Notes: a model not told the origin generated them from the sequence alone. 53,516 bases of DNA from Actinomycetota bacterium (GCA_023481285.1 JAMCWL010000045.1:1-53516), one strand, 5' to 3'. Shown: positions 5,869 to 31,705, numbered from the stretch's first letter. Numbers and translations are program-made.

Positions 5869-8813
5869 TTCAGCGTCACCTGCCAGGCCCTCTTCAAACT
5901 CCCGAGCCCAGTCTCGATGAGCCTCTCCCCGCCCTTCCCCGTCACCTGGAAGGTCGGCTCATCCAGGACAACCCCTATCTTGCCTAAGGGGAGACCGCCG
6001 AATTCACGCTCAAAGGAGGCGGCGTTTTCCGGGGCGACGGTGACGATGAAGCGGGAATTCGATTCGGAAAAAAGGATGATCTCGTCCTCGAGATCGCCAT
6101 CCGTCGGAACAGCGGCGAGCGCGAGCGTCATACCGAAGCCTCCGGCAAAAGCGCTTTCGGCCGCCGCCACCCCGATACCCCCCTCGGAGCAGTCGTGGCA
6201 CGAAGCGATGAGGTTTTCTTGAATAGCCCGGTGGACGGCGCAGTATACCATCCCGGCCAGCGCGGGGTCGAGCCCCGGCGCGATGCCTCCCTTGCCGCCG
6301 ATAATCGTATGGTAGTGGGAGCCGCCCATCTCTCGCTTCGTAACGCCGACGACGTAGATGAGGTCACCCGGTTGCTTGACATCCATGGTGACGCTTTTCC
6401 GGACGTCGGGCACGATGCCCATGGCCGAAATGAGGAGAGTCGGCGGAATGGCTCTCGTCTTGCCTTCGACTTCATACTCGTTGTGGAAGGAGTCCTTGCC
6501 CGAGATGAAGGGTAGCTTCAAGCCCACAGCCGCATCGTAGCAACCCCTGACGGCGCGCACCAGTTGGGCAAGTTTAAAATCCCCGTCCGCGTTCGCCGCC
6601 GATTTGATCGGATTCCCCCAGCAGAAGTTGTCGAGTATGGCTATCCTTTCAGGATCCGCCCCCACCGCCACCGCGTTTCTTACCGCCTCGTCCACCGCCG
6701 AGCATGCCATCGCATACGGATCGACCACTCCATACTTGGGATTGATCCCATTGGAGACGGTGATCCCCCGGTTCGAGTCGCTGATAGGCTTGAGAACCGC
6801 CCCATCTGAAGGCCCGTCGCTCGCAAGACCGACAAGGGGTTTTACGACGCTCGTCCCCTGGACTTCGTGGTCGTACTGGCGAACAACCCACTCCTTTGAG
6901 CAGACGTTGAGGCTGCTCAATATCTCTTCGAGAACCTCTGCCGCGCCCCTACCAACAGGCGTCTCTTCAACTTCTTCAAACTCTCGCCAGACGGAACTAA
7001 GCCGGTAACCCGGCAGCCCGCGGTGGAGAAAGTCCATCTCCAGGCAGAGAACACTCTTGCCAGCATACTTGACGTGCATCTTTCCTGAATCGGTGAAGCG
7101 CCCGATGATGGTCGCCTCGACATCTCGGCGCCGGCATAGGTCGAGAAAGGCTTCAATATTTTCAGGAGGGACGGCGAGCGTCATCCTTTCCTGGCTTTCG
7201 GAGACCCAGAGCTCCCACGGGTCGAGACCGGAATACTTGGTCGGGGCTTTCTCGAGGTCGACCTCTGCGCCGCCCGAAAGCTCGGCCATCTCTCCGACCG
7301 ACGAGGAGAGGCCGCCGGCCCCGTTGTCCGTTATCGCGTTGTATACCCCGGCATCCCGCGCCTCCATCAGTGCGTCCTGCATCCGCTTCTGGACAATCGG
7401 GGCGCCGATCTGGACGGCTGCGATGTCCGTCCCCTCGTCGAGCTTGACCGAAGAGAAGGTCGCCCCGTGAATCCCGTCCTTTCCAATCCTTCCCCCGACC
7501 ATCACGACGAGGTCACCGGGGTTTACCGCTTTTACGTGGGAGGGCCGTCCGTTGATCTCCCGCGGCATTAAACCGCCGGTTCCGCAGTAGACCAGGGGAT
7601 TGTAAACGTAAGCCTCGTCGAAGAGAATCGCTCCGTTCACCGTCGGGATGCCGATCTTGTTGCCGCCGCTCTCAACCCCTTTGCGGACGCCCTTAAATAC
7701 CCGCTTCGGGTGGAGGATGTGGCCGGGCAGTCTTTCCGCTGGAAAGTCCGGGGGCCCGAAGCAGAAGACGTCCGTATTGAAGACGAGGTCGGCGCCCAAA
7801 CCCGTTCCCATCGGATCCCGGTTCACGCCGACGATGCCGGTCTCCGCCCCGCCGAATGGATCGAGGGCGGAGGGGTGATTGTGCGTCTCTACCTTGAAGC
7901 AAATGTTATGCTCCTCGTCCAGGCGCACCACCCCGGCGTTGTCCGTGAAGACGGAGACGAGCCAATCCCCTTTGGTTTTACCGACCTCGTCCGTCGCGCG
8001 CTTGATATATGTCTTGAAAAGGGATTCTATCCGCTCGGTCCGCCCTCCCTCCGTGTGAATGATCGTCGCGTTAAAAATCTTGTGCTTGCAATGCTCGCTC
8101 CAGGTCTGGGCGAGCATTTCGAGCTCGACGTCAGTCGGCTTATGTCCAAGCCCCAAGGAGGCGCGCTCGGCCCGGACACCGGGCCGCCGAAAGTACTCCC
8201 GTATCGCGCTCATCTCGTCCAAGTTCAGAGAGAGTATCCCTTTGCGGGAGATATTGAGGAGCTCTTCGTCGGAGACGTTCAGGTCGATTTCGGCGACCGT
8301 TGGTTCCTTCGCCGCCGGCATGGCAAAAGTTCGCCCGCCGGGCTGGCTGTCGCTCCGCCCGATAGAAAAAGTTTCGATGATGGGGTTGGCGAGAAGGCCG
8401 ACCGTTATCCTCTCGGCATCCTCATCCGTGAGCTCCCCGTCGATCGCGTAGAGGCGCGAGGTGTGGACCGTCTCTCCATCGCACAGCACCACGCCCAGGA
8501 GATCTTCGATACCTTCGACGGCCGTCACTCCCACGTTGTCGGTCACCCCAGGTTTGTAGCCTACGTCAATCGCGACCGAAAAATCCTTGACCAGCGGTTC
8601 GTTGATTGAAAAGTGCTGGGTAATCGGGTCGGCAAGAAGCTCGGCGGCTATAAAATTGACCTTCTGCGCGGGGAGGGTGGCGGTGATCGTATAAACGTCG
8701 ACCGTGCGGACGCGCTCCACATCTATCCCCAGGTCCTCCGCGATCGATCGCCGCACCGATTCGCCGAGAGCATCCCTGACGCCGTCCTTGAAGCCGACTT
8801 CAATGCGCCACAC
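5862..8813 (-). CDS. purL: Phosphoribosylformylglycinamidine synthase with N-terminal duplicated PurS-like domains fused to PurL
   Basis: 983 aa; QTWSEHCKHKIFNA and CFKVETHNHPSALDPFGGAETGIVGVNRD; PurS-like tandem halves in the first ~160 aa. Confidence 0.96.
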   Translation of the reverse strand: MWRIEVGFKDGVRDALGESVRRSIAEDLGIDVERVRTVDVYTITATLPAQKVNFIAAELLADPITQHFSINEPLVKDFSVAIDVGYKPGVTDNVGVTAVEGIEDLLGVVLCDGETVHTSRLYAIDGELTDEDAERITVGLLANPIIETFSIGRSDSQPGGRTFAMPAAKEPTVAEIDLNVSDEELLNISRKGILSLNLDEMSAIREYFRRPGVRAERASLGLGHKPTDVELEMLAQTWSEHCKHKIFNATIIHTEGGRTERIESLFKTYIKRATDEVGKTKGDWLVSVFTDNAGVVRLDEEHNICFKVETHNHPSALDPFGGAETGIVGVNRDPMGTGLGADLVFNTDVFCFGPPDFPAERLPGHILHPKRVFKGVRKGVESGGNKIGIPTVNGAILFDEAYVYNPLVYCGTGGLMPREINGRPSHVKAVNPGDLVVMVGGRIGKDGIHGATFSSVKLDEGTDIAAVQIGAPIVQKRMQDALMEARDAGVYNAITDNGAGGLSSSVGEMAELSGGAEVDLEKAPTKYSGLDPWELWVSESQERMTLAVPPENIEAFLDLCRRRDVEATIIGRFTDSGKMHVKYAGKSVLCLEMDFLHRGLPGYRLSSVWREFEEVEETPVGRGAAEVLEEILSSLNVCSKEWVVRQYDHEVQGTSVVKPLVGLASDGPSDGAVLKPISDSNRGITVSNGINPKYGVVDPYAMACSAVDEAVRNAVAVGADPERIAILDNFCWGNPIKSAANADGDFKLAQLVRAVRGCYDAAVGLKLPFISGKDSFHNEYEVEGKTRAIPPTLLISAMGIVPDVRKSVTMDVKQPGDLIYVVGVTKREMGGSHYHTIIGGKGGIAPGLDPALAGMVYCAVHRAIQENLIASCHDCSEGGIGVAAAESAFAGGFGMTLALAAVPTDGDLEDEIILFSESNSRFIVTVAPENAASFEREFGGLPLGKIGVVLDEPTFQVTGKGGERLIETGLGSLKRAWQVTLKW

Positions 8814-13665: not shown

Positions 13666-15936
13666 ATGTTGGGGGCAGGTGGTATGCGAGGGTCCCTTAG
13701 CGACAGGTGGGAGAGCGGACGGGAAAGAGATCGCGAGACCGAGGTTCTTCCTATCAAGTTGTATAGGGGACGCGCCGGAATCAACGAGCGCCGCTGGATC
13801 GAGCAGCTCGTAAGCATGCTAACGCTCGTCTCGACAACCCTCATTTTGTTCTATTTTTTCCGCCCCGATCTCTTGCTATCTACAACGACGACGACGGGTG
13901 GAGATACAGGGGCTCACCACTACATCCCTCTCTTTCTAAAGAACTACCTGCTGCCCAGGGGGCGGATAACGGGCTGGGCTCCAGGATGGTATGCCGGCTT
14001 TCCGGCGCTCACCTTCTACTTCCCACTGCCGGCTCTTCTGATAGCGGCGCTTAGCTACCTGATCCCGTACCAGATTGCTTTCAAGCTGGTAACGGTAGCC
14101 GGATCTTTCATGTTGCCCCTCGCCGCCTTCGCGACCTTCAAGATGTTGGACTTTGATTTTCCGATGCCGGAGGCGGCCGCTCTAATGTCGATCCCATTCC
14201 TCCTCATGGAAAGCTTCACAATAAACGGGGCCAACCTGCTATCGACGCTCGCCGGGGAGTTCGGCTATTCGATCGCTTTTGCCCTTGTCCTTCCGTTAAC
14301 AGCCTTGTTCTACAGGACCATGGCAAACGGGCGGTCCATCGTTGCCGGCGCTTTCACCCTGGCGGCGACCGTTCTCAGCCACGCGGTCCCCGCTATCATC
14401 GCCGTCGCTTCCATCTTGCCCTCTGTCATCGGTAGGAATGCCCATCTCCGCTTATGGCGTCTACTATTGATTCTGTCTCTCGGGTTTGCCCTCAGCGCTT
14501 TCTGGAGCCTCCCGTTCATCGCCAAGCTCGGCTACGCGGCGAGGATGGTCTGGCAGCAAACGAGCGATCTTGAAAACATCATCCCTCGTGAGATAAGGAT
14601 GGTTGCTTTAGCCGGAGCCCTGGGGCTTGTAGGGGCGATCCTTAAAAGAGAGCGAAGGTTGGCGCCCTTCATGTCGCTAGCCCTACTCTCGCTCCTCCTC
14701 TACTTCTACCTTCCGGACGGTCCTATCTGGCGAGGACGCTTCCTTCCCTTCTGGTACTACGCCATCATGATCTTTGCCGCTTACGCTATCTCTCTTCTGG
14801 CCCGAACCCTCGCCGGTTTCGCCCGCCGGATTGGCCTCTTCCCGACCATAGCCTCTGCCCTTGTTCTTTCGATGGCCGGCTGGACTATGGTCCTGCCGCC
14901 TATTCGTGAAGCTAGGCTCGCTAGGAGCTGGATCGAGTGGAACTACTCCGGCTACGAGAGAAAGCCGGCCTGGCAGCTATACCGGAGAATAAACGACAAG
15001 CTCAAGAGCCTGCCACCCGGAAGAGTAATGTGGGAGTACTCACCAGCTTATGGAAAATTCGGCACGCCCAGAGCCTTTGAGATCATTCCCTACTGGACGG
15101 GTAAGCCCACCATGGAGGGAACCCTCATCGAGTCGTCTCTAACGGCCCCCTTTCACTTCATAAACCAGGCTGAAATATCCCCAAAACCGACGCGCGCCGT
15201 GCCTGGAATCACTTATCCGGATTTTAGTTTTGAAATGGGCGTGAAGCACCTCGAGCTCTACAACATCAAATACCTGTTGGTCACGTCCGAAGAGGCGAGG
15301 GCGGCGGCTGATTCTTCGAAGCAGTTAAAGCTCTTAAAGAGGACCGGGGAGTTTTCCATCTACGAGGTAGCCACCGACGGCTACGTCTCAATCCCCAAGT
15401 ATCGCCCCCTGAAGGGAAAAGAAAGGTTCTGGCATGAAACCTCTTTATCCTGGTACAAAGATGAGGACAAGCTCGACGTCCCGATAGTCTTCGGGTCCGA
15501 TCGAGCTCTCTCCGCCTTTAAGGAGGTGGGACCGGACCTAAAGCACTTCTCCAAGACCCCGCTAAGCATAAAAGGCGGCGTAAGCGAGATAAGCCTCTCT
15601 AATGAGGAACTCAAGTTCAAGACCTCGGCAATCGGCCTCCCTCACCTCGTAAGAATCTCCTACTTCCCGAACTGGAAGGCGGAGGGAGCTTACGGGCCGT
15701 ACCTCGTCACTCCTTCCATCATGATGGTCATCCCCAGAGAAAACGAGGTCAGGCTCTACTACGGCAAAACGCTCGCCGACTATGTTGGAGTGGGATTAAC
15801 GATCGCCGGCCTACTTGCCTGCCTTATCCTGGTGCTGCGCCGCCCTGCACGGACTTCGAAGTACAGGAGATCGATAACCTTTCTCCCACCCAGAAACTTG
15901 AGACTGGAAAGTGAAAAAGACGGTAAATACCTATAA
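13666..15936 (+). CDS. Polytopic membrane protein, 6-pyruvoyl-tetrahydropterin-synthase-related (GT-C-like) family
   Basis: TTTTGGDTGAHHYIPL...GWAPGWYAGFPALTFYFPLP; many TM segments; start uncertain. Confidence 0.7.
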   Translation: MLGAGGMRGSLSDRWESGRERDRETEVLPIKLYRGRAGINERRWIEQLVSMLTLVSTTLILFYFFRPDLLLSTTTTTGGDTGAHHYIPLFLKNYLLPRGRITGWAPGWYAGFPALTFYFPLPALLIAALSYLIPYQIAFKLVTVAGSFMLPLAAFATFKMLDFDFPMPEAAALMSIPFLLMESFTINGANLLSTLAGEFGYSIAFALVLPLTALFYRTMANGRSIVAGAFTLAATVLSHAVPAIIAVASILPSVIGRNAHLRLWRLLLILSLGFALSAFWSLPFIAKLGYAARMVWQQTSDLENIIPREIRMVALAGALGLVGAILKRERRLAPFMSLALLSLLLYFYLPDGPIWRGRFLPFWYYAIMIFAAYAISLLARTLAGFARRIGLFPTIASALVLSMAGWTMVLPPIREARLARSWIEWNYSGYERKPAWQLYRRINDKLKSLPPGRVMWEYSPAYGKFGTPRAFEIIPYWTGKPTMEGTLIESSLTAPFHFINQAEISPKPTRAVPGITYPDFSFEMGVKHLELYNIKYLLVTSEEARAAADSSKQLKLLKRTGEFSIYEVATDGYVSIPKYRPLKGKERFWHETSLSWYKDEDKLDVPIVFGSDRALSAFKEVGPDLKHFSKTPLSIKGGVSEISLSNEELKFKTSAIGLPHLVRISYFPNWKAEGAYGPYLVTPSIMMVIPRENEVRLYYGKTLADYVGVGLTIAGLLACLILVLRRPARTSKYRRSITFLPPRNLRLESEKDGKYL

Positions 15937-16017: not shown

Positions 16018-17529
16018 ATGGCCCAAACGAACGGGGAGCGCACGGCCAAAAGAGCCTTTATCGATCGTCGCTACTGGCTGGCGACGGCGGTTGTAGCCGT
16101 CCTCGTGGCGATCGCCCTCTCCCGCGGGATAACCCGCCCTTGGGTGGGCTATCACGAGGCCTGGAACGGGGCGTGGTTCTCCCTCATCGCCAGAAACTAC
16201 CTCCTACATGGTCTGCTTGAGACCAAGTTAGGCCAGGTGATAAACCCGGTTCCTGTTCCACCGGAGGCCTTCGGCTATTACGCGGGCCACCCGCCTCTCC
16301 TGCCCCTTGCAGTCGCGATGTTTTTTAAGATTTTCGGCGAGTACGAGTGGTCGGCGAGACTCGTCCCCATTCTTTTTTCCACCGCCTCGGCGCCCCTCGT
16401 CTTTTTGGTCGGCCGGGAGTTGTGGGGACGCCGGGCCGGTTTTATCGGCATGGTCGCCTTCGTCGTTAACCCTATGTTTCTTTACTTCGGACGCATGGTC
16501 GACCACGAAGCGCCCGTCACCTTTTTCGCGTTGCTCTCGGTGCTTTCGTATATCAGGTGGGCAAGAGGGGATGGACGCTACCTCTGGATGCTTTCCGCTT
16601 CGCTCTTTCTCGGCGGGATTACCGATTGGCCCGCTTACTATCTCATCCCGATACTAGGTCTGCACTACCTTGTCTTCATCAAGAAAAAAAGTTTTCTTGC
16701 AGCGGTACCTTTAGCTGCCGCCATAGCTACGCTTGGTCTGATTTACCTTCAGATAAGATGGCTGGGCTCGGCAGCCTACAAGGAGATAGTCGGCTCCTTC
16801 TTCATCCGCACCAATCTGAACAGCGATCAGGCCACGACCATCACGCTATTCAAGCTGCTGCGCGCTCAGGCCCTGAACGCAAATTGGCTTTTTACAACAC
16901 CGCTTCTCGCCACCGGAGCGCTCGGCCTGGTAGTGGCGTCGGCCCCTCGATATAAGCAAGAGAGATCCTTTGCCGTCTCCCTTTTGGTGGGCCTTTTCGC
17001 CTTTGGGGCGATTCACGTCCTTCTCTTCAAGCAGGGCGCGATGAACCACTCCTACTGGTTATATTACTTCTTGCCCTTTCTCGCCCTCTCCGCGGGCATC
17101 GCCCTCGATTTTATATCCTCGGTCTTACCGAAATGGGTCTCCCCTTTACCAACCTTCGCCGTCATCTTAGCGATCGCCCTCATCGCAAGATCGACGCTCA
17201 CCGGCATTCACCAGAGCGACAACTGGGAGCTATCTCTTTTTGGCAAGACCGCCGCTTCAATGACGAAGCCCGGCGATGTAGTTTTGACGTCGCTCTCATC
17301 CCGAGCCTTCGGCACCGTCTTCATGATGTACTACACCCGGCGTACCGTCGTCGACCTGACCGACGGTCTCCCAAAATTCAAGCGCGCCCTGTTGGAAAAT
17401 CCTACGGCGGCTCTGATGGTGACCTATCGGAATGCGACCGACGCTGAATTGCAGAAGTACCTCGATGAGAATTACCGCCGGAAAGAGCGAGGGAACTTTC
17501 TCTTCTACGAGCTGCGAAAGCCCAAATAA
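16018..17529 (+). CDS. Glycosyltransferase family 39 / ArnT-like membrane protein
   Basis: GITRPWVGYHEAWNGAWFSLIARNYLLHG...ARLVPILFSTASAPLVFLVGRELWGRRAG. Confidence 0.85.
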   Translation: MAQTNGERTAKRAFIDRRYWLATAVVAVLVAIALSRGITRPWVGYHEAWNGAWFSLIARNYLLHGLLETKLGQVINPVPVPPEAFGYYAGHPPLLPLAVAMFFKIFGEYEWSARLVPILFSTASAPLVFLVGRELWGRRAGFIGMVAFVVNPMFLYFGRMVDHEAPVTFFALLSVLSYIRWARGDGRYLWMLSASLFLGGITDWPAYYLIPILGLHYLVFIKKKSFLAAVPLAAAIATLGLIYLQIRWLGSAAYKEIVGSFFIRTNLNSDQATTITLFKLLRAQALNANWLFTTPLLATGALGLVVASAPRYKQERSFAVSLLVGLFAFGAIHVLLFKQGAMNHSYWLYYFLPFLALSAGIALDFISSVLPKWVSPLPTFAVILAIALIARSTLTGIHQSDNWELSLFGKTAASMTKPGDVVLTSLSSRAFGTVFMMYYTRRTVVDLTDGLPKFKRALLENPTAALMVTYRNATDAELQKYLDENYRRKERGNFLFYELRKPK

Positions 17530-22646: not shown

Positions 22647-22736
22647 CAAACAGCTTTTTATAAGGCCCTCAGCAAGCACCTTTTGGACTATGCCTTTTTA
22701 GGGTAATTATATCGTATAAGCTTATTGGAGAAAAAA

Positions 22737-23522
22737 TTGCTTAAGCGACGAGTATATCTACACAGAGGCATGTGGAGCATGACGCGGAATGCGCTCCACA
22801 TGGCAATAGGGGTAGCCTGGCTGTTCACACTGGTAGCCGCATTGGTTTTTTGGACAAGGCCCTTCTGGACTTTCCAGGCGGTTTTAACACAGAGGCTTCT
22901 CGATTTCGCAAAGGTGCCATACCGGCTGCTTTTGCTGCCGGTGATCGATTTAAGCCGCGGCATTCCGGTCTACTACCGTCCCGGCGGAAGGACCTTTGTC
23001 GTTCCGGTCGAGTATAGCTCGCTTAAGCCGGGTTTGGCCCTGTTGGTCATCCTTCTCCTGGTGATCCTAGGGCTCGCTTTATACCAGTTGAAAAGGATTG
23101 CCCTTCCGATCAGGGTTTCCTTCCTCTTCCTGCTCGTCCTCGTTGTCTCGACCATACTTTACACGAGCTTTGTCTCGCCGGTGCCTCCACACGCGGTTAA
23201 CAGGCTCTCGATCGACTGGCAATACTCCGGCGCGGTCGTGCTCCTGCTCGCCTCTTTGATCTTTGTCTTTTCGGTATTCCCCGTCAAAGGACCGCTGTGG
23301 ATTAAATTCGGCTGGCTATTCGGGATGCTCGTTTACGGAATTATCTGGAACGTCGTCAGGATCTCCGTCGTCCTCTCAACCCTTTATCATCTGGGAAGTA
23401 TGCCTTTTCTGTTGACCCATTACCTGACGGGCATCTACATCGACTTTATCTATATAGTGGCGTTCTATTCACTCGCCCTGTCCCACCTGGCCAGGCGCGA
23501 GGTGAGCGAAGTGGGGTGGTAA
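22737..23522 (+). CDS. Exosortase/archaeosortase-family (XrtG-like) membrane protein without any cysteine
   Basis: C-terminal GIIWNVVRISVVLSTLYHLGSM resembles the exosortase NxxR region; YSGAVVLLL occupies the place of the CSG motif. TTG 22737 with upstream TTGGAG is favoured; ORF track starts at 22725. Confidence 0.6.
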   Translation: MLKRRVYLHRGMWSMTRNALHMAIGVAWLFTLVAALVFWTRPFWTFQAVLTQRLLDFAKVPYRLLLLPVIDLSRGIPVYYRPGGRTFVVPVEYSSLKPGLALLVILLLVILGLALYQLKRIALPIRVSFLFLLVLVVSTILYTSFVSPVPPHAVNRLSIDWQYSGAVVLLLASLIFVFSVFPVKGPLWIKFGWLFGMLVYGIIWNVVRISVVLSTLYHLGSMPFLLTHYLTGIYIDFIYIVAFYSLALSHLARREVSEVGW

Positions 23523-23525
23523 GTC

Positions 23526-24902
23526 ATGATAATCCTGGGCATGGCGATGGTCGTCATCTTCTCCATATTGATTACCTACGCTGTCAGACACTACGGCTTC
23601 TACTGGAACCGCATGTTTGGAAAGCAGAAAAGGCCTATGCAAGACCTTGCCGGTTATTACCTGCCGAGCGTCTCGATCGTGGTGCCCATGCACAACGAGG
23701 AAGCGGTCGCCGGGAACATCCTCGAACGGCTGGCTGTGATGGACTACGCGAAGGAGAACGGCCACTACGAGGTGATCGCGATCGACGACGGCTCCACGGA
23801 CAAGACGGGCAAGATTGTCGACGAGTACGCCGGCAGGTACCCTTTCATCCGGGCGATCCACCGTGCCGGGGGCGGCTATGGCAAAGCCGACGCTCTTCAG
23901 GTCGGCTCAATGGAAGCCAGAAATGAAATTCTGCTCGTCTTCGACGCCGATTACCAGCCCTCTCGGGCTTGCATCAAGCGCCTGGTCGCTCCCTTCTGCG
24001 ACCCTGAGATCGGCCTGGTCATGGGTAGAGTCGTTCCCATAAACACCGAGCAGTCGTTGATGACTCGCCTCCTCGACCTGGAGCGGACGGGTGGCTATCA
24101 GGTGGCCCAGCAGGCCAAGCATAATCTTGATCTGGCTTCGCAATATGGTGGAACGGTCGGCGGCATAAGAAAAGACCTCCTGCAAACCCTCGGTGGCTGG
24201 GATCCCAGAAAGCTGGCGGAAGACACCGACATCACCGTACGGGCCTTCTATAACGGCTGGCGGATAGGGTATGTGAACATCGCCGAGTGCTATGAGGAGT
24301 CGGTGACGTCCTGGAAAGAGCGGCGCTTGCAGCTTGCTCGCTGGGCGACCGGTCACAATCAATGCCTCCTTTCTCATCTTGGAGCGGTTATCAAGTCGCC
24401 CGTATTGAGCTTCCTGCAGAAGTTCGACGGCATCCTCATGCTCGGCGTTTATCTGGTGCCGGTGATCATGTTAATCGGCCTGTTCCTCTCAATTACCGTC
24501 TACTTCTTCGCCGCTTTCTGGTGGTGGACCTTCTTCGCCGCGCTTCTCTTCACCCTCACCTACAACAACATCGGCAACTTTGCTTGCTTTAACGAGGTTG
24601 GGGTCGGCGCCGTCCTCGATAAGCGGGGGCGCGTCATCTGGCTGCTTCCCTGGAGCCTCTTTAACTTCTTCGCCAACGTTTGGATCTGCACCGGGTCGTT
24701 CGTAAAATCTCTGGTTATTCACGGAAACCATCGCGCGTGGGATGCCGGGGTTACCAACGGCCATGCCAACGGCAATGGGGTTAACTGGAACAAGACGAAG
24801 AAGAATGGCTCAACAAACGGTAATGGGAACGGCATCAAATGGGAGAAGACGAAGAAAAACGGTTTGACTAACGGCAATGGAAACCACAAAGGGAAGGCCT
24901 AG
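23526..24902 (+). CDS. Family 2 glycosyltransferase, cellulose-synthase-like (exosortase-G-associated type)
   Basis: SIVVPMHNEEAVAGNIL, DDGSTD, DAD, LAEDTD, QLARW; C-terminal TM segments; NG-rich tail. Confidence 0.87.
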   Translation: MIILGMAMVVIFSILITYAVRHYGFYWNRMFGKQKRPMQDLAGYYLPSVSIVVPMHNEEAVAGNILERLAVMDYAKENGHYEVIAIDDGSTDKTGKIVDEYAGRYPFIRAIHRAGGGYGKADALQVGSMEARNEILLVFDADYQPSRACIKRLVAPFCDPEIGLVMGRVVPINTEQSLMTRLLDLERTGGYQVAQQAKHNLDLASQYGGTVGGIRKDLLQTLGGWDPRKLAEDTDITVRAFYNGWRIGYVNIAECYEESVTSWKERRLQLARWATGHNQCLLSHLGAVIKSPVLSFLQKFDGILMLGVYLVPVIMLIGLFLSITVYFFAAFWWWTFFAALLFTLTYNNIGNFACFNEVGVGAVLDKRGRVIWLLPWSLFNFFANVWICTGSFVKSLVIHGNHRAWDAGVTNGHANGNGVNWNKTKKNGSTNGNGNGIKWEKTKKNGLTNGNGNHKGKA

Positions 24903-26416
24903 TGCTCAACTACGCTCTGCTGGTCTTAGCATTCCTATTCCTGGTCGCCCTCTGCTTTGTCCCCGGTCTAGTAGAGCTGCGCTGGCCCAAGGACCAGGGG
25001 CCCGTCGATATCGACCTTGATCGTGACATCGACGAGCGATACTTCTCACGCGCCTTCAAGGCCTACCTAAAGAGCGGTCTCTCGTCCGTATCCGCTAAAG
25101 CAATTCCCCTGTCGAACGTGGAGAATAGCTGGTTAAGAGGCGTGCAGGCAAAGAAAATGAGGACGTTTATCCACCGGGGCGCCGAGGACATACTGGTCAT
25201 CGATGGGGATGTGAACCTGCCGACGGGCACCGAGTGGCCGCAGGCCGCGCTTGTTCAGGGTAACCTCACCACCTCCCACAACTGCCTCCTCCTGCAGGAG
25301 GTCTCTGTGGAGGGAGATTGCCTGGTAGGGGAGAGCAACCACCTGCAGTGCCTGAGCGCAAAAAACATTAGCCTTGGCGAGAACACGATCATCGACGGCT
25401 GGATCGACGCCGAAGAAAAACTAATCACTGGAGTCGGCTGTGAAGTGCACGGCCGGGCCACGGCCGGTAAACAGATAAGGATCATGGGGATCGGCAATTT
25501 TAAGAGCCTGGCCGCACCGGTAATCGAAGTTATTTCGAGTCTCGCCGATATGCCATCCGATCAAGACCTTGAAGAAGAAATCGAGGAGATTGAGAGCGAA
25601 GCTCCTCTTCCGTTGGAGCCGGTCGCGGAAGCATCGGAAGCCATAGCCGCCCGGCCTGAAGAGTTGGAAGAGGAGATCGTTGTCCCCCCGCTAGAAGCTA
25701 CCCCCGAGGCAGAAGCGAGACCGACCGATGAAAAACTGGAGCGGGAAGTCGAAGCGATGGATTTGACGGAGTGGCCGGCTGAGTATGATTCGGTGATTTC
25801 TGGGAGCTTTCACCTGAAAAGCATCGAGGAAATTGGGGATGAGCTCCGGGGGAGGGAGGGCAAGTATATTCCGTATCGCTTTATCTTATGGCGCGCAAAC
25901 ATGCTGGGACTCGTCAACACACCATTGACCGCTCTCAAATCCGAGCAGAAGCCGGAATATATGCGATCTTCAGCGGTCTGGCTGCAGGCTCCAACTACCA
26001 TACGCGTCAAAGGTGGTCTATCCGTCCCTGAAGGTGAAACGGTCCCTTACGACTTGATCATCGAAGGCGACCTGGATAGCGACACCGGCGTCTTCTTCGA
26101 TGGGGGTCTTCACGTAAGGGGAACGGCAACGCTTGGAGAAGTAAATCAAATTCAAAGATCTTTGGTGGCCGATGGCAATGTTATACTTAGGGAGTATACG
26201 ACGGTTGGTCACTGTGTTAACGCCGGTGGCTCGGTCTTTGTTAAGACCGGCACCCGCATAGGTGTGACGGATACCGGCGGTCTGGCAGCTCGAGAAACGG
26301 TCTACCTGGAGCCGGGAGTCAACGTTCATGGCAAAATCTACGGAGAGCACGGCGTCGAAGTCCGCCAGGCGGACGACGAGATTGCTGGTATCAAATCTAC
26401 TAGCAAAGGTACGTAG
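24902..26416 (+). CDS. TM-anchored bactofilin-like/polymer-forming protein: two beta-helix-like blocks and an acidic linker
   Basis: N-terminal TM; repeating VDGDVNLPTGTEW.. / GDCLVGESNHL.. / VADGNVILREYTTVG..; E/P-rich centre. Confidence 0.6.
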   Translation: MLNYALLVLAFLFLVALCFVPGLVELRWPKDQGPVDIDLDRDIDERYFSRAFKAYLKSGLSSVSAKAIPLSNVENSWLRGVQAKKMRTFIHRGAEDILVIDGDVNLPTGTEWPQAALVQGNLTTSHNCLLLQEVSVEGDCLVGESNHLQCLSAKNISLGENTIIDGWIDAEEKLITGVGCEVHGRATAGKQIRIMGIGNFKSLAAPVIEVISSLADMPSDQDLEEEIEEIESEAPLPLEPVAEASEAIAARPEELEEEIVVPPLEATPEAEARPTDEKLEREVEAMDLTEWPAEYDSVISGSFHLKSIEEIGDELRGREGKYIPYRFILWRANMLGLVNTPLTALKSEQKPEYMRSSAVWLQAPTTIRVKGGLSVPEGETVPYDLIIEGDLDSDTGVFFDGGLHVRGTATLGEVNQIQRSLVADGNVILREYTTVGHCVNAGGSVFVKTGTRIGVTDTGGLAARETVYLEPGVNVHGKIYGEHGVEVRQADDEIAGIKSTSKGT

Positions 26417-29012
26417 TCTAGGCCTTCTGTCCTTATGCGCCCATCTCCTGATCGCCCTAGCCTTACTTGCCCTGGTACTATTTCTCTTTCCAAGCTACCT
26501 GAAACCATACTGGCCCAGCGGCTACGACACCTTCGGCCACCTGGCGAAAGTAGAGTCGTTCGCCCGGATGATTTCGCAGTACGGCAACTATGTCGACTGG
26601 TCCGACGAGTGGTATGCTGGTTACCACCCGCTCTTATTTTACCCGCCTCTTTCCTACGCATTTCCAGTTCTCTTGCGCCTTCTTTCAGTCAGCATGAGCG
26701 CGGTCGCGCGATTCAGCATTTTAGCGGGCATATGGGCGGCGGCTTTTTCCGGGTACCTTTTGGGTCTCGCCCTCTTACGTCCAGCAAATGGCGCCAGAGC
26801 GAGAATATTGGCGCTCGTTCCGGCAGTTGTTTACAGCACCATTCCGGCCGTCATCGCGCTTCAAACGGTCGCGGGCGAGTTTGCCGACTTCTGGGCGGGC
26901 GCACTGGCTCCGCTTGCGGCCGCCAGCCTCCTGCTTTGGCTTCAGTGCCGGCGTCTGAGATATCTTGCAGCGCTAGCCATCAGCCTGTCGGTTGTCTTCC
27001 TCATGCACGGGCACATCGCCACCCCACTGGGCCTCGGTTTTATCGTCGCCGCTTTCGTTTACGATTTTATCGGAGACCGAGGGGCTCGGGGTGAGCAAAA
27101 CGTTTCGGATGGAGCATACCGGGGCTTCTGGGGGACCTTGCTCGCGATGCTCCTCTTCGTGGGGTTGACCGCTTTCTGGTGGTTACCCTACTTCGTGGAA
27201 TCACCGTCTCTAGCTATTCCGAATTTAGTTCCCCTTTCAAGAACGGCTCTGCCGCTATACTCCCTCATAAACAGGAGTGTTGCAGCGGGCACCCCGCGCT
27301 ACCTTGGCTTGGTCGCGCTTTTTCTGGCAGCCCTGGGGCTCTGGCTGGGCGAGCGTAAGAAGGTTGCCCTCCTTGTCAGCCTGGCGGCTGTCGGAGTTCT
27401 AATGTTCTTGGGTCCTTCCTGGGAAGCTTATTCGCAAATCCCCGTCCTTGGGTTGGTCTTCGCCGAAAGAGCTGTCCCTCTGATCGCCGTAGCTATTTCG
27501 GGTCTCGCCATGCTTGGCGTTGCTGGTGTGGTGACACGGCTTGATCAACTATTCTCAGACAAGGCGGGCGCGCTCTCCAGCAGTCGAGTCTTTTTGCTCT
27601 TCAAGACGGTACTTATTCCGCTGGTCTTTGTTATTGCCGCCGGCTCCGCCATCTTGGCCGACGCCTCCTTCATCCTGCCGCGGACCAAGGCTCAGGCTAT
27701 GCCGAGCGACTTCTGGAAGCTGACGCAGTTTCTGGCGAAGCAGCCCAGGTCTTATGGGGCCAGGGTAGCTTTTGTCCCATCCGCCGCGCTCGATTCCTAC
27801 GCGCCAGCGCTCTCTGGCTGGCCGATCCTCGGAGGTTATCTCGTCCAGGGATCCAAGCTTTCGACGGAAATCGAATGGGTCATGTCCAGGGAGCTTACTA
27901 AAACCGACCGCCGGGCCGCGTTGGCGGCCTTCAAGCGCTGGAACATCGCCTACATCGCGGTGGACCATTATTCCAGGCCGGAGATCGCCCGAGCCCTAGA
28001 AGTCGAGTCCTCTTTCTCGAAAGTCTTCTCCACCGACTACTACTCCCTGTTCAGATACTCCTCAACCCCCGGCTATCTTGCTCCGGCGAGAAGCGTGCTG
28101 GTCGTAGGCGATTCCCGCTACATCCGCGAGACGCTCGAAAGAAGCGCGGAGGACGCCGGTGAACAGATTCTTTTTTCGGAAGGAGAGATCGACAAGCTCC
28201 GGGAAGGACGCTATGATACCATCATTTTCCCCGGCGGAACCGCACCAGAAGGATTCGAAAAGGAAGTTAAGCGCAAGGTGAGCGCGGGAGCCAACGCAGT
28301 TATCGACCTAGACGGAGCGGGGGTTAAGTCATTCATAGGCGTTAAGGTGCAGCCGGTCAGGTTCAGAGGGCCTTTACCGGTAGTCAACCTGAACGAAGAT
28401 ACTCACGTGGCGGATGCCACGTACATGGAAGGTCCGTGGGATACGGTTGAGTTCGAGGGCCTTGACGAGGTCTGGCTCTCGACGGGTAAGAAGGCACTCG
28501 CCGGCGTGAAGCGGATTGGCAAGGGGCGGGTCCTTTTCTTGGGGTTCAATCCCTTCTATCACGCCGCCTACAAAGGTGACGAATGGGAGAAACGGGAGCT
28601 CGTAGCGATGTTCCGGCGTCTAGCCGGTGACAAAAACCCCGCCTCTTCTTTTACCTACCGGTTGCTAAAAATTGTTCCGGGATCAAAACTTTTCGAGATC
28701 AACGTCGCCGACCCTACTTCAGTTCTCATATCGAGCAGTTGGAGCCCATACTGGAGCGCGTACCTCGACGGCCGCCCGCTTGCACTCAATAAAGCTCAGG
28801 ACATGCTGGTGGTGGAGGTTCCCAAAGGACGCCATCAATTCTGGCTGAAGTTCAGCAGTTGGTCCGTAGCCAGGTTGATTGGGGTCGCCATTTCCTTGTT
28901 GACCTTGATCCTGGCCGGTGCCGGTGCCTTCTTTGTCACCCGGCGCCGTTCCCAAGTGCGGGTGGCAGACGAAGCCCCCGGCTCATTGGAAGTCGGAATT
29001 GGAAGAGCATGA
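26328..29012 (+). CDS. Giant membrane protein, 6-PTPS-related/YfhO-like, with GATase-like extracytoplasmic domain
   Basis: YWPSGYDTFGHLAKVESFARM..NYVDWSDEWYAGYHPLLFYPPLSY; C-terminal WSPYWSAYLDGRPL. The first 89 nt overlap the upstream gene; start uncertain. Confidence 0.7.
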   Translation: MAKSTESTASKSARRTTRLLVSNLLAKVRSLGLLSLCAHLLIALALLALVLFLFPSYLKPYWPSGYDTFGHLAKVESFARMISQYGNYVDWSDEWYAGYHPLLFYPPLSYAFPVLLRLLSVSMSAVARFSILAGIWAAAFSGYLLGLALLRPANGARARILALVPAVVYSTIPAVIALQTVAGEFADFWAGALAPLAAASLLLWLQCRRLRYLAALAISLSVVFLMHGHIATPLGLGFIVAAFVYDFIGDRGARGEQNVSDGAYRGFWGTLLAMLLFVGLTAFWWLPYFVESPSLAIPNLVPLSRTALPLYSLINRSVAAGTPRYLGLVALFLAALGLWLGERKKVALLVSLAAVGVLMFLGPSWEAYSQIPVLGLVFAERAVPLIAVAISGLAMLGVAGVVTRLDQLFSDKAGALSSSRVFLLFKTVLIPLVFVIAAGSAILADASFILPRTKAQAMPSDFWKLTQFLAKQPRSYGARVAFVPSAALDSYAPALSGWPILGGYLVQGSKLSTEIEWVMSRELTKTDRRAALAAFKRWNIAYIAVDHYSRPEIARALEVESSFSKVFSTDYYSLFRYSSTPGYLAPARSVLVVGDSRYIRETLERSAEDAGEQILFSEGEIDKLREGRYDTIIFPGGTAPEGFEKEVKRKVSAGANAVIDLDGAGVKSFIGVKVQPVRFRGPLPVVNLNEDTHVADATYMEGPWDTVEFEGLDEVWLSTGKKALAGVKRIGKGRVLFLGFNPFYHAAYKGDEWEKRELVAMFRRLAGDKNPASSFTYRLLKIVPGSKLFEINVADPTSVLISSSWSPYWSAYLDGRPLALNKAQDMLVVEVPKGRHQFWLKFSSWSVARLIGVAISLLTLILAGAGAFFVTRRRSQVRVADEAPGSLEVGIGRA

Positions 29013-31705
29013 AAAAGATTACGGCAACCGCAGAAAGAAAATCCCGCCAAGAACCAGGTATGCCAGCGGAGGTTGGCAAGGTGGAGCGGCCGGAGGTCGG
29101 CCGCTTTCTCCCAATCCTCGCCGGAGCGGTGCTTCTTTCACTTTTAACCCTCTTTATACTCTACATTTTTCGGCCCTATCTCCGACCCGGTTTTGCCGGC
29201 GGCTACGATACCTTGATTCACTTCTTTAAAGTGGCTCAAATCAAAGAAATGTTCATTCGCTATGGCACCTATATCGATTGGAATGACCAGTGGTATGCGG
29301 GATACCACCAATTCCTCTTCTACCCCCCGCTTTTTTATCCCCTTGCTGTCCTGGCCGAACTCTTCATTAACAACCTTGAGATAACAAGCAAGGCGATGGT
29401 CGTTGCGGCGGTAGTTTTCAGCGGCTTCTCAGCGTATCTACTTGCCTACAACACCCTGCCGGCAACCGACAGAATTTGGCGGCGCAGCTTGGGAGCTTTT
29501 ACATCGGCGGTATCATACGCGCTGAGCCCGGCTCTGCTTTCTTTTATTGTCACCAGGGGCAAGTATCCCGACTACTATGCAATAGCCTTCGCCCCTCTTT
29601 GCTTCGTCTTATTGGTCCGCTGGCTTAAGTCCGACCGCCGGACCATCCCCCTGGGGTTCGCCCTGGCTCTTTCGATAATGCTCCTCCTCCACATAGATAC
29701 GGCCGTCACGCTGGCCCTCGCGTCTCTCATCTATTCGGTGCTGTACCTCAAGGCTTCGTTGTGCGAAAAGGCACGCCTCTTCAATCCAGACTACTACCGT
29801 CCCATGGCCCTGCTAGGGCTTTCTCTTATTCTCTTTGCCGGTTTGACAGCCTTCTTCTGGCTCCCATACTTGACCCAGATAAAAACGCTCGGAGCATTGG
29901 AGCAGCTTTATCCAAGCCGGGCGCCGCTGCCGCTATCCGTCTTTGCCCGCAGCCATCTGATCAACGGCATCTCCCGCTATCCAGGCATGATTGTACTGGT
30001 GCTGGCATTGCTTCCGCTGGCCCTTCGAAAGCTCAGACCGGCTGTCTGGACATGGTTCACGCTGATGATCACAGGTTTTGGGCTAAGCCTTATGCCCTAT
30101 ACGCCAATCGCCACAAGCTTACCCTCAGTTAACACGCTCTTTTATAGAAGTGGGATCGTGCTCGCCATTCTCGCGGTGTCGGTGATGGTCGGCATCACGA
30201 TCTACAGCTTAATCACTTTGAATTGGCGCCAGCGGCTTGATAAGCATTTACCAAAGTGGCTTGCAACAGCCTTAGAAGCATCTCTTCCGACTCTCTTTGT
30301 GCTAGCTGTAGTGGTGGTCATTATATTCGACTTCTCTTTTATCAGCGGCAGCGTTAAGACTTCAAAGTGGTTTAAAGGTGAAGTCCATCAAGTAGTTTCT
30401 TCCTTAAGTAAAGCGAAACAGATCGATGGAGGGCGCGTCTTAGTTTTAGCATCTCCAATAGCTGAATATACATTTCTACCAGCACTAATCGGCAAGCCGA
30501 TTGTCAACGGGTATGAAGCTCAAGCGGCCAGAATGTCGGTAGACATAGAAATCATTAAACGGGAGATGGCTAAAGGTGAGAGCGAGTCCTTTGTGCTCAC
30601 AAAATTAGATCAGCTTAACGTGCAATTCTTGCTTATCGATAGAATTGATTATCACAAACAGTTGGATAGACTACTAGCGACCAAGCGCTTTACCACCATT
30701 TTCTCAGGCAATTACTATCGTATCTTGGAGCACCGGCCGCCAGGTTTTGTCCAGCCAGTCAAGCCCATACTAGTCATTGGCTCGAACAGTGCTTATCCGG
30801 TCCAGGCACTATCGCCAACCACCGGAATCGGCTTTGTCAAGGGCGGCAATCTCATCGATGATTACTCTTCCGAGGAACTATCGAAGTACCAACTGGTTGT
30901 CCTGTATAATTTTGAGGCCCACAACGTCAATGTCGCTCAAGAGACGCTTGAGAAGTATCTAAAGCAGGGTGGGCGACTGATCGTAGCGATGGACGGGAGC
31001 TTGTCAAATCTGTTGCCCGACCAAACATTCTTGGGGGTGAAACCCAACACAAACGAATTCGCAAAAAAAAGTAAGGTCAAGGTTACTGCGGGTATGCCGG
31101 TGAAATTCTCGACCCTTAACAACCGCGACGGCAGATGGTCCGGTACTTTCTATCGGGGTTTGGATGATGTGTGGTTAACGGTCGAAGGGCAGTATCCTGT
31201 TTTGGGGACCCGTCGGATAGGCAAAGGAGAAGCGCTGTTCGTCGGTTACAATCTTTTCTACCACGCGATTTATGAAGATAATCGAACCGAGGCTGAACTG
31301 CTGCAAACCGCCGCAAAGCGCCTCCTCCAAAATGATCGGGTAGCTTTACGTTATAGCCGCGTTTCAAGTCGTCCAGGCAAGATTAGTTTTGACGTTGACC
31401 CTTCCCAGCCCACTTGGACTATGGTTTCCATGTCTTGGTCGCCCTACTGGGTGGCGTACGTTGATGGAAAAGGGGTGCCGACACGCTCCTATGAGAATCT
31501 TCTCGCGCTCTATCTGCCCTCCGGAAAACACCGGGTTGACTTGGTTTATCAACTGACGCCGGTGCACAAGATCGGCCTGGCGATCACAGCATTCGCTCTG
31601 CTTTTCCTCCTGCTAACTGGATCGATTAGGCTGAGAAACGAGTGGAGCGACCCATCAGCCCCGATGAGATTAAGCCTGCGCAATAGCTTGCGACGATTAC
31701 CTTAA
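29009..31705 (+). CDS. Giant membrane protein, 6-PTPS-related/YfhO-like (tandem paralogue)
   Basis: GGYDTLIHFFKVAQIKEMFIRYGTYIDWNDQWYAGYHQFLFYPPLFY; ATGA overlap with upstream stop; ATG 29009. Confidence 0.72.
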   Translation: MKKITATAERKSRQEPGMPAEVGKVERPEVGRFLPILAGAVLLSLLTLFILYIFRPYLRPGFAGGYDTLIHFFKVAQIKEMFIRYGTYIDWNDQWYAGYHQFLFYPPLFYPLAVLAELFINNLEITSKAMVVAAVVFSGFSAYLLAYNTLPATDRIWRRSLGAFTSAVSYALSPALLSFIVTRGKYPDYYAIAFAPLCFVLLVRWLKSDRRTIPLGFALALSIMLLLHIDTAVTLALASLIYSVLYLKASLCEKARLFNPDYYRPMALLGLSLILFAGLTAFFWLPYLTQIKTLGALEQLYPSRAPLPLSVFARSHLINGISRYPGMIVLVLALLPLALRKLRPAVWTWFTLMITGFGLSLMPYTPIATSLPSVNTLFYRSGIVLAILAVSVMVGITIYSLITLNWRQRLDKHLPKWLATALEASLPTLFVLAVVVVIIFDFSFISGSVKTSKWFKGEVHQVVSSLSKAKQIDGGRVLVLASPIAEYTFLPALIGKPIVNGYEAQAARMSVDIEIIKREMAKGESESFVLTKLDQLNVQFLLIDRIDYHKQLDRLLATKRFTTIFSGNYYRILEHRPPGFVQPVKPILVIGSNSAYPVQALSPTTGIGFVKGGNLIDDYSSEELSKYQLVVLYNFEAHNVNVAQETLEKYLKQGGRLIVAMDGSLSNLLPDQTFLGVKPNTNEFAKKSKVKVTAGMPVKFSTLNNRDGRWSGTFYRGLDDVWLTVEGQYPVLGTRRIGKGEALFVGYNLFYHAIYEDNRTEAELLQTAAKRLLQNDRVALRYSRVSSRPGKISFDVDPSQPTWTMVSMSWSPYWVAYVDGKGVPTRSYENLLALYLPSGKHRVDLVYQLTPVHKIGLAITAFALLFLLLTGSIRLRNEWSDPSAPMRLSLRNSLRRLP

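Follow-up and report, generated by a model that had tools for sequence, protein, structure and literature searches.

The window is a stretch of 53,516 nucleotides that makes up a whole contig of the 2.17 Mb draft genome G000, which belongs to the Actinomycetota, class Ca. Aquicultoria, as do its relatives (e.g. L041, Ca. Oleimmundimicrobium americanum). Five plus-strand genes, referred to here as Xrt, GT2, BAC, PT1, and PT2, are packed between positions 22725 and 31705. The genes and the features within them are as follows:

22725-23522, plus strand: Xrt, an exosortase/archaeosortase-family membrane protein without Cys (TIGR04178 is the top NCBIfam match; orthologues in G022, G025, G029, and G055)
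23214-23231, plus strand: DWQYSG motif of Xrt (aa 164-169), whose Tyr aligns with the catalytic Cys (ECSA/ECTA) of 10 Cys-containing exosortases
23358-23360, plus strand: Arg212 codon of Xrt, exosortase NxxR motif, retained (invariant in the six Cys-less Xrt; aligns with the canonical Arg)
23418-23420, plus strand: His232 codon of Xrt, HxxxG motif, retained (invariant in the six Cys-less Xrt; aligns with the canonical His)
23526-24902, plus strand: GT2, a PgaC/IcaA-like processive polysaccharide synthase (PF00535, PF13632, PF13641; best NCBIfam model PgaC)
23943-23951, plus strand: DxD motif of GT2 (DAD), from a motif scan
24330-24344, plus strand: QxxRW motif of GT2 (QLARW), from a motif scan
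24902-26416, plus strand: BAC, an N-terminal TM helix and two hexad-repeat beta-helix domains with a Myb/SANT-like middle (AlphaFold, homologous halves, 6-residue period)
25145-25534, plus strand: beta-helix domain 1 of BAC, aa 82-211 (AlphaFold, homology of the halves, periodicity)
25772-25921, plus strand: Myb/SANT-like three-helix segment of BAC, aa about 291-340 (modelled as three helices; PDB profiles of Myb match weakly, E 0.03-0.7)
25973-26362, plus strand: beta-helix domain 2 of BAC, aa 358-487 (AlphaFold, homology of the halves, periodicity)
26328-29012, plus strand: PT1, a PTPS_related GT-C-type membrane glycosyltransferase-like protein (PF10131; clade with the G025 and G029 PTPS)
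29009-31705, plus strand: PT2, a second PTPS_related GT-C-type protein (PF10131; clade with the G022 and G034 PTPS)

The five consecutive, tightly spaced or overlapping genes described in the sequence-only reading were reproduced, both in their open reading frames and in their junctions. Xrt and GT2 are separated by a 3 nt gap, GT2 and BAC overlap by 1 nt, BAC and PT1 overlap by 89 nt, and PT1 and PT2 share an ATGA overlap, which suggests a single operon. The operon is flanked on the left by a minus-strand block ending in the gene of an FAD-type enzyme and purA, and on the right by a minus-strand block with the genes for the replicative helicase, ribosomal protein L9, and SSB (all named from their translations). 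Scans for promoters and terminators in the region immediately before 22.7 kb found nothing on the plus strand. A separate pair of GT-C-type genes lies approximately 5-9 kb upstream of the operon (window 13666-15936 and 16018-17529); the scores obtained for this pair were 68.7 bits to PF10131 in the genome search, but without an hmmscan match, and 52.9 bits to PMT_2.

The start codon of Xrt is likelier to be the TTG at 22737 than the TTG at 22725, with a GGAG 6 nt upstream and a position that aligns with the relatives. In NCBIfam, each of the six Cys-less Xrt proteins matches the exosortase-family model TIGR04178 best (18.0, 23.1, 22.1, 25.8, 21.9, and 16.6 bits by hmmscan; curated cut-off 23 bits). 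This supports the family assignment first proposed, although the window protein alone scores a weak 18-21 bits against that cut-off. Scores in the genome searches ranged from 19 to 29 bits overall, and the relatives in G025, G022, and G029 exceeded the cut-off with 25-28.8 bits. When 150 relatives were searched with TIGR04178, the proteins over the cut-off were ten Cys-containing candidates and the Cys-less orthologues, with the rest below, and no other exosortase over the cut-off was found in the genomes with a Cys-less Xrt. No Pfam match was found for Xrt, a PDB sequence search returned no match, and none of the 18,950 NCBIfam models is dedicated to Xrt or to BAC. The profile-profile alignment of Xrt with the Cys-containing XrtG-like group is marginal (E 0.015) and covers the C-terminal half that carries the Arg and His. 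The AlphaFold model of Xrt, built from the six sequences, is poor (pLDDT 60), and a Foldseek search with it found no significant structural match.

The lack of the catalytic Cys noted from the sequence is confirmed: the window protein has no cysteine in its 265 residues, and the catalytic column is occupied by Tyr, Phe, or Thr in all six proteins while the Arg and His are kept. The [E/Q/A]C[S/T/C/A][A/G] motif of the Cys-containing proteins corresponds to DW[QR][YFT]S[GA] in the Cys-less Xrt, and Asp164 and Asp240 are invariant across these six sequences (the full sample behind the Xrt motif statements) and are replaced by other residues in the aligned Cys-containing XrtG-like proteins. The archaeosortase ArtA is thought to form a thioester via Cys173 (PMC7157517). 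Since Xrt has no Cys nucleophile, the thioester of the sortase reaction cannot form. No description of Cys-less exosortases was found in the open literature.

The operon had been proposed to be an expanded XrtG system. The scores speak against this, as the XrtG model TIGR03110 gives 10.8 bits on the window Xrt (cut-off 102.75) and the XrtG GT2 model TIGR03111 gives 33.4 bits on the window GT2 (cut-off 363.95). XrtG-like loci with the Cys do occur in Aquicultoria (G016, G018, and G024) and also in G038, which belongs to another class. They begin with a gene for a secreted protein, followed by Xrt and then GT2, with a PTPS gene after GT2 in three of the loci; the G024 contig ends within GT2. The Xrt proteins of these loci score 72-95 bits with TIGR03110, and the GT2 of G016, the one such GT2 scanned, scores 272 bits with TIGR03111. 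The C-terminus of the secreted protein consists of [IV]P[TI]LG, a hydrophobic stretch, and basic residues, an IPTLGYP-like sorting tail. A profile of this tail gave one match per genome, adjoining Xrt, in G016, G018, G024, and G038; as these four genomes were used to build the profile, their recovery is a consistency check. The same profile, specific to this tail type, found no tail in G000, G025, G029, or G055 and noise only in G022, and the window operon has no gene for a CTERM substrate. In the GT2 tree the XrtG-type group is set apart from the window GT2 by a branch of 3.4 changes per site. The window locus is thus not XrtG plus extras, though it has the same kinds of parts. The tailed secreted proteins beside the XrtG-like genes (L065:5372-7918, L066:3386-4915, L064:6698-8173, and L068:2241-4793) carry in this tail a candidate undescribed CTERM sorting signal, which NCBIfam did not flag in the three that were scanned.

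GT2 matches the Pfam family Glycos_transf_2 with 94 bits and directly follows Xrt in every Aquicultoria copy, as expected of the dedicated glycosyltransferase that had been suggested. It has the complete motif set of processive synthases (D, DxD, ED, and QxxRW), one N-terminal TM helix, C-terminal TM segments, and a predicted cytoplasmic, NG-rich C-terminus with two WxKTKK motifs. The WxKT motif is common among membrane GT2 proteins, and the idea that it serves as a BAC-binding peptide was considered and dropped as evidence on that account. The best curated model is that of the poly-beta-1,6-GlcNAc synthase PgaC (TIGR03937), at 113.6 bits and far below its cut-off of 422, and the nearest model of a C55-P-sugar synthase (PRK10714) gives 37 bits. 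Neighbouring genes, for a NodB-type deacetylase (G064) and for UDP-GlcNAc 2-epimerases (G022 and G029), provide a hint that the sugar polymerized may be an N-acetylhexosamine. The catalytic motifs are kept in the GT2 of all five Aquicultoria Xrt loci and in that of G064. The GT2 homologue of G055 has lost all four motifs, with Xrt and BAC still present, and the Xrt-GT2-BAC set of that genome therefore cannot be a polymer synthase. This homologue (L014:10018-13146, between the Cys-less Xrt and BAC) lies on a very long branch, and its C-terminal tail is long and acidic. The GT2 proteins of two relatives (L011:11394-13040 and L013:991-2703) have a TPR-like cytoplasmic C-terminal extension.

BAC has a short N-terminus, one TM helix followed by basic residues, and two predicted beta-helix domains with a helical segment between them, in agreement with the membrane-anchored beta-helix protein of the sequence-only reading. 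From the positive-inside rule we infer a probable N-out, C-in topology. AlphaFold models both beta-helices with a pLDDT of about 90, the two are homologous (E 5e-15), and the hydrophobicity of both has a period of 6 residues. The further label of bactofilin-like did not hold, as the Pfam bactofilin family PF04519 gives 10.7 bits on the window protein and at best 16.2 bits, in G055, against a gathering score of 27.9. The top PDB profile matches are LpxA-type hexapeptide proteins (E 8e-6), a Foldseek search with the BAC model found no significant match (BacA probability 0.21), and no member of the bactofilin family was found in the G000 genome. It is safer to regard BAC as a predicted hexad beta-helix scaffold rather than a bactofilin.

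PT1 and PT2 both exceed the cut-off of PF10131, PTPS_related (86 and 123 bits; cut-off 26.4), a member of the GT-C clan (PMC7801869), as had been claimed for these membrane proteins. Each has about ten or more TM segments (about 10-12 in PT1), followed by a large soluble C-terminal part and a final TM helix. The first outer loop carries a DWxD/E motif whose Asp90 is conserved across the module family. The two were also described as duplicated, which stands as an ancient paralogy and in no other sense: in the PTPS tree, in which the PT1 row is long and of unusual composition, PT2 groups with the G022 and G034 proteins and PT1 with the G025 and G029 proteins, both with support of 100/99. Most simply, the pair would derive from an old duplication, with a single member surviving in each of the other loci.

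The module recurs outside the window. Xrt orthologues occur in the Aquicultoria genomes G022, G029, and G025 (two copies) with identities of 61, 51, 50, and 46%, and a remote one (23%) occurs in G055, which belongs to another class of Actinomycetota. A survey of genomic neighbourhoods found that co-occurrence of the genes is conserved, with the order Xrt-GT2-BAC-PTPS at four further loci in the three other Aquicultoria genomes; in one G025 copy the contig end cuts the PTPS gene. The flanks of these loci differ, and the same gene order at 46-61% Xrt identity in differing flanks is beyond chance. Incomplete forms are Xrt-GT2-BAC without an adjoining PTPS in G055, GT2-BAC-PTPS at a contig edge in G034, BAC at a contig edge in G041, and GT2-BAC followed by a NodB-type deacetylase in G064, where no Xrt was found. 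The G064 pair (L062:8962-11687), whose downstream neighbour combines a GATase-like segment recognized by eye with the NodB-type deacetylase domain, represents an Xrt-free form of the module. A UDP-GlcNAc 2-epimerase gene adjoins the module in G022 and G029. Upstream of Xrt in G055 are two secreted-looking proteins (L014:6725-7555 and 7907-8686) with PGD...NT-type segments that recall TasA/camelysin-like proteins; neither has a Pfam or NCBIfam match.

An Xrt profile search found convincing copies in 4 of 37 genomes of the class and 5 of 399 genomes of the phylum, so the module is rare and patchy. This sensitive profile was applied within Actinomycetota; the broader scan covered 85,488 species genomes with two short peptide patterns alone, and its matches were loci of the same Aquicultoria species only. 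No Xrt homologue was found on plasmids. Weak Xrt matches in G110, G101, and G326 were discarded for small scores, partial coverage, and longer open reading frames, and an Xrt fragment in G034:C160 was rejected.

We hold with moderate confidence that the operon encodes a synthase-dependent machine for a cell-surface glycan, with Xrt as a membrane subunit that does not sort proteins. The families, the motif states, the conserved gene order, and the lack of the class's own CTERM-type tail and of another exosortase are read from the sequence; we infer which sugar is used, that a complex forms, what Xrt does, and how the proteins are oriented in the membrane. GT2 would polymerize a sugar, probably an N-acetylhexosamine, and thread the polymer through its own membrane channel. 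BAC, anchored in the membrane with its beta-helices in the cytoplasm, may scaffold or cluster the synthase. On the outer face, PT1 and PT2 would decorate the polymer with side sugars taken from polyprenyl-phosphate donors, comparable to YfhO with teichoic acids; GT-C proteins are known to modify wall polymers with sugars from C55-P-sugars (PMC8035078). Xrt may be a membrane subunit whose Arg/His pocket binds an anionic lipid or glycan and which couples export, modification, or anchoring. This reading draws on the gene order conserved in five Aquicultoria loci of differing contexts, the retention of Arg and His without the Cys in six Xrt proteins, the complete set of processive motifs in GT2 with PgaC as its best model, the Xrt-free pairing of GT2 and BAC beside a polysaccharide deacetylase, and the two neighbouring epimerase genes. 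It also draws on the lack of an IPTLG-type tail and of another exosortase here, in contrast to the tail adjoining the four Cys-containing XrtG-like loci; a glycan rather than a protein-sorting function, as originally suggested, is the better reading. Against the glycan machine are the poor Xrt model, the marginal half-length profile alignment, and the dead GT2 in G055. The last is the chief fact that this reading leaves unexplained, and it speaks for a structural role of the Xrt-GT2-BAC core in that lineage at least.

Among the alternatives, multi-component transmembrane glycosylation is unlikely. GT2 would make a C55-P-sugar, Xrt would be a flippase or helper replacing GtrA/Wzx, and PT1 and PT2 would use an unrelated wall polymer as the acceptor for the sugar. 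A GT-A enzyme, a small polytopic protein, and GT-C enzymes together fit the parts list (PMC8035078), with PT1 and PT2 of GT-C type; however, GT2 has the QxxRW motif and matches PgaC far better than PRK10714, and Xrt matches exosortases, not flippases. It is distinctly unlikely that Xrt is an active transferase with another nucleophile (e.g. Asp164 or Asp240 with Arg212 and His232) that moves a lipid or glycan to an acceptor. The kept Arg and His and the two invariant Asp residues, which differ in the XrtG-like proteins, are consistent with such chemistry, but they come from six sequences, the search for IPTLG-type tails gave no substrate signal, and the structure model is not trusted. A chiefly structural or positioning role of the conserved Xrt-GT2-BAC core in the envelope, with enzymatic synthesis secondary, appears improbable; G055 retains all three genes despite its dead GT2, and beta-helices of the sort predicted for BAC often oligomerize, but the catalytic motifs persist in the GT2 proteins of G064 and of all five Aquicultoria loci that have Xrt. 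Ordinary XrtG protein sorting with unrecognized substrates is very improbable, for although XrtG loci share the Xrt, GT2, and PTPS parts, every member here lacks the catalytic Cys, the XrtG models score far under their cut-offs, and neither a substrate gene in the operon nor an IPTLG tail in the genome was found.

More tentatively, the glycan-machine reading may extend to a possible lineage of the exosortase family that gave up peptide chemistry and became integral to a complex of glycan synthase and GT-C proteins, where it would serve as a binding subunit or, with a new Asp-Arg-His site, as a transferase. To our knowledge, the moiety that bacterial exosortases join to their substrates and the reason for the frequent presence of polysaccharide genes beside them are both unsettled. 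A lineage that has neither nucleophile nor protein substrate yet retains GT2 and GT-C proteins points to the glycan machinery as the partner of importance. On the wider reading, exosortase folds would bind and handle lipid-linked glycans, and the GT2 and GT-C neighbours in XrtG-type loci would make the moiety that exosortases attach. BAC would be an unnamed synthase partner present in several lineages of Actinomycetota. As loci with and without the Cys occur in one class, the role of the glycan machinery can be tested by comparison.

Several known systems share parts with the operon. Like bactofilins (PF04519), BAC is predicted to form a regular beta-helix and suggests a membrane-linked scaffold, but it falls below the Pfam cut-off, has a TM anchor, and has two beta-helices split by a Myb-like segment; it resembles hexapeptide (LpxA-type) helices as well. 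The CsbB-GtcA-YfhO glycosylation system likewise combines a membrane GT-A protein with a GT-C protein that has a large extracytoplasmic C-terminal domain, whereas the window operon has a processive GT2, contains no gene for a GtrA flippase, and has PTPS_related rather than YfhO as the best family of its GT-C proteins. The poly-N-acetylglucosamine systems PgaABCD and IcaADBC provide the closest GT2 models (PgaC/IcaA) and a parallel to the NodB-type deacetylase beside the G064 GT2-BAC pair, but the operon lacks PgaD/IcaD and PgaB/IcaB and has Xrt, BAC, and the GT-C proteins. The XrtG system of Gram-positives (TIGR03110/03111, Firmicu-CTERM) also places an exosortase-fold gene by a GT2 and a PTPS-related membrane protein; the window operon differs in having no catalytic Cys or CTERM substrate, a GT2 of another subfamily, and an added BAC gene.
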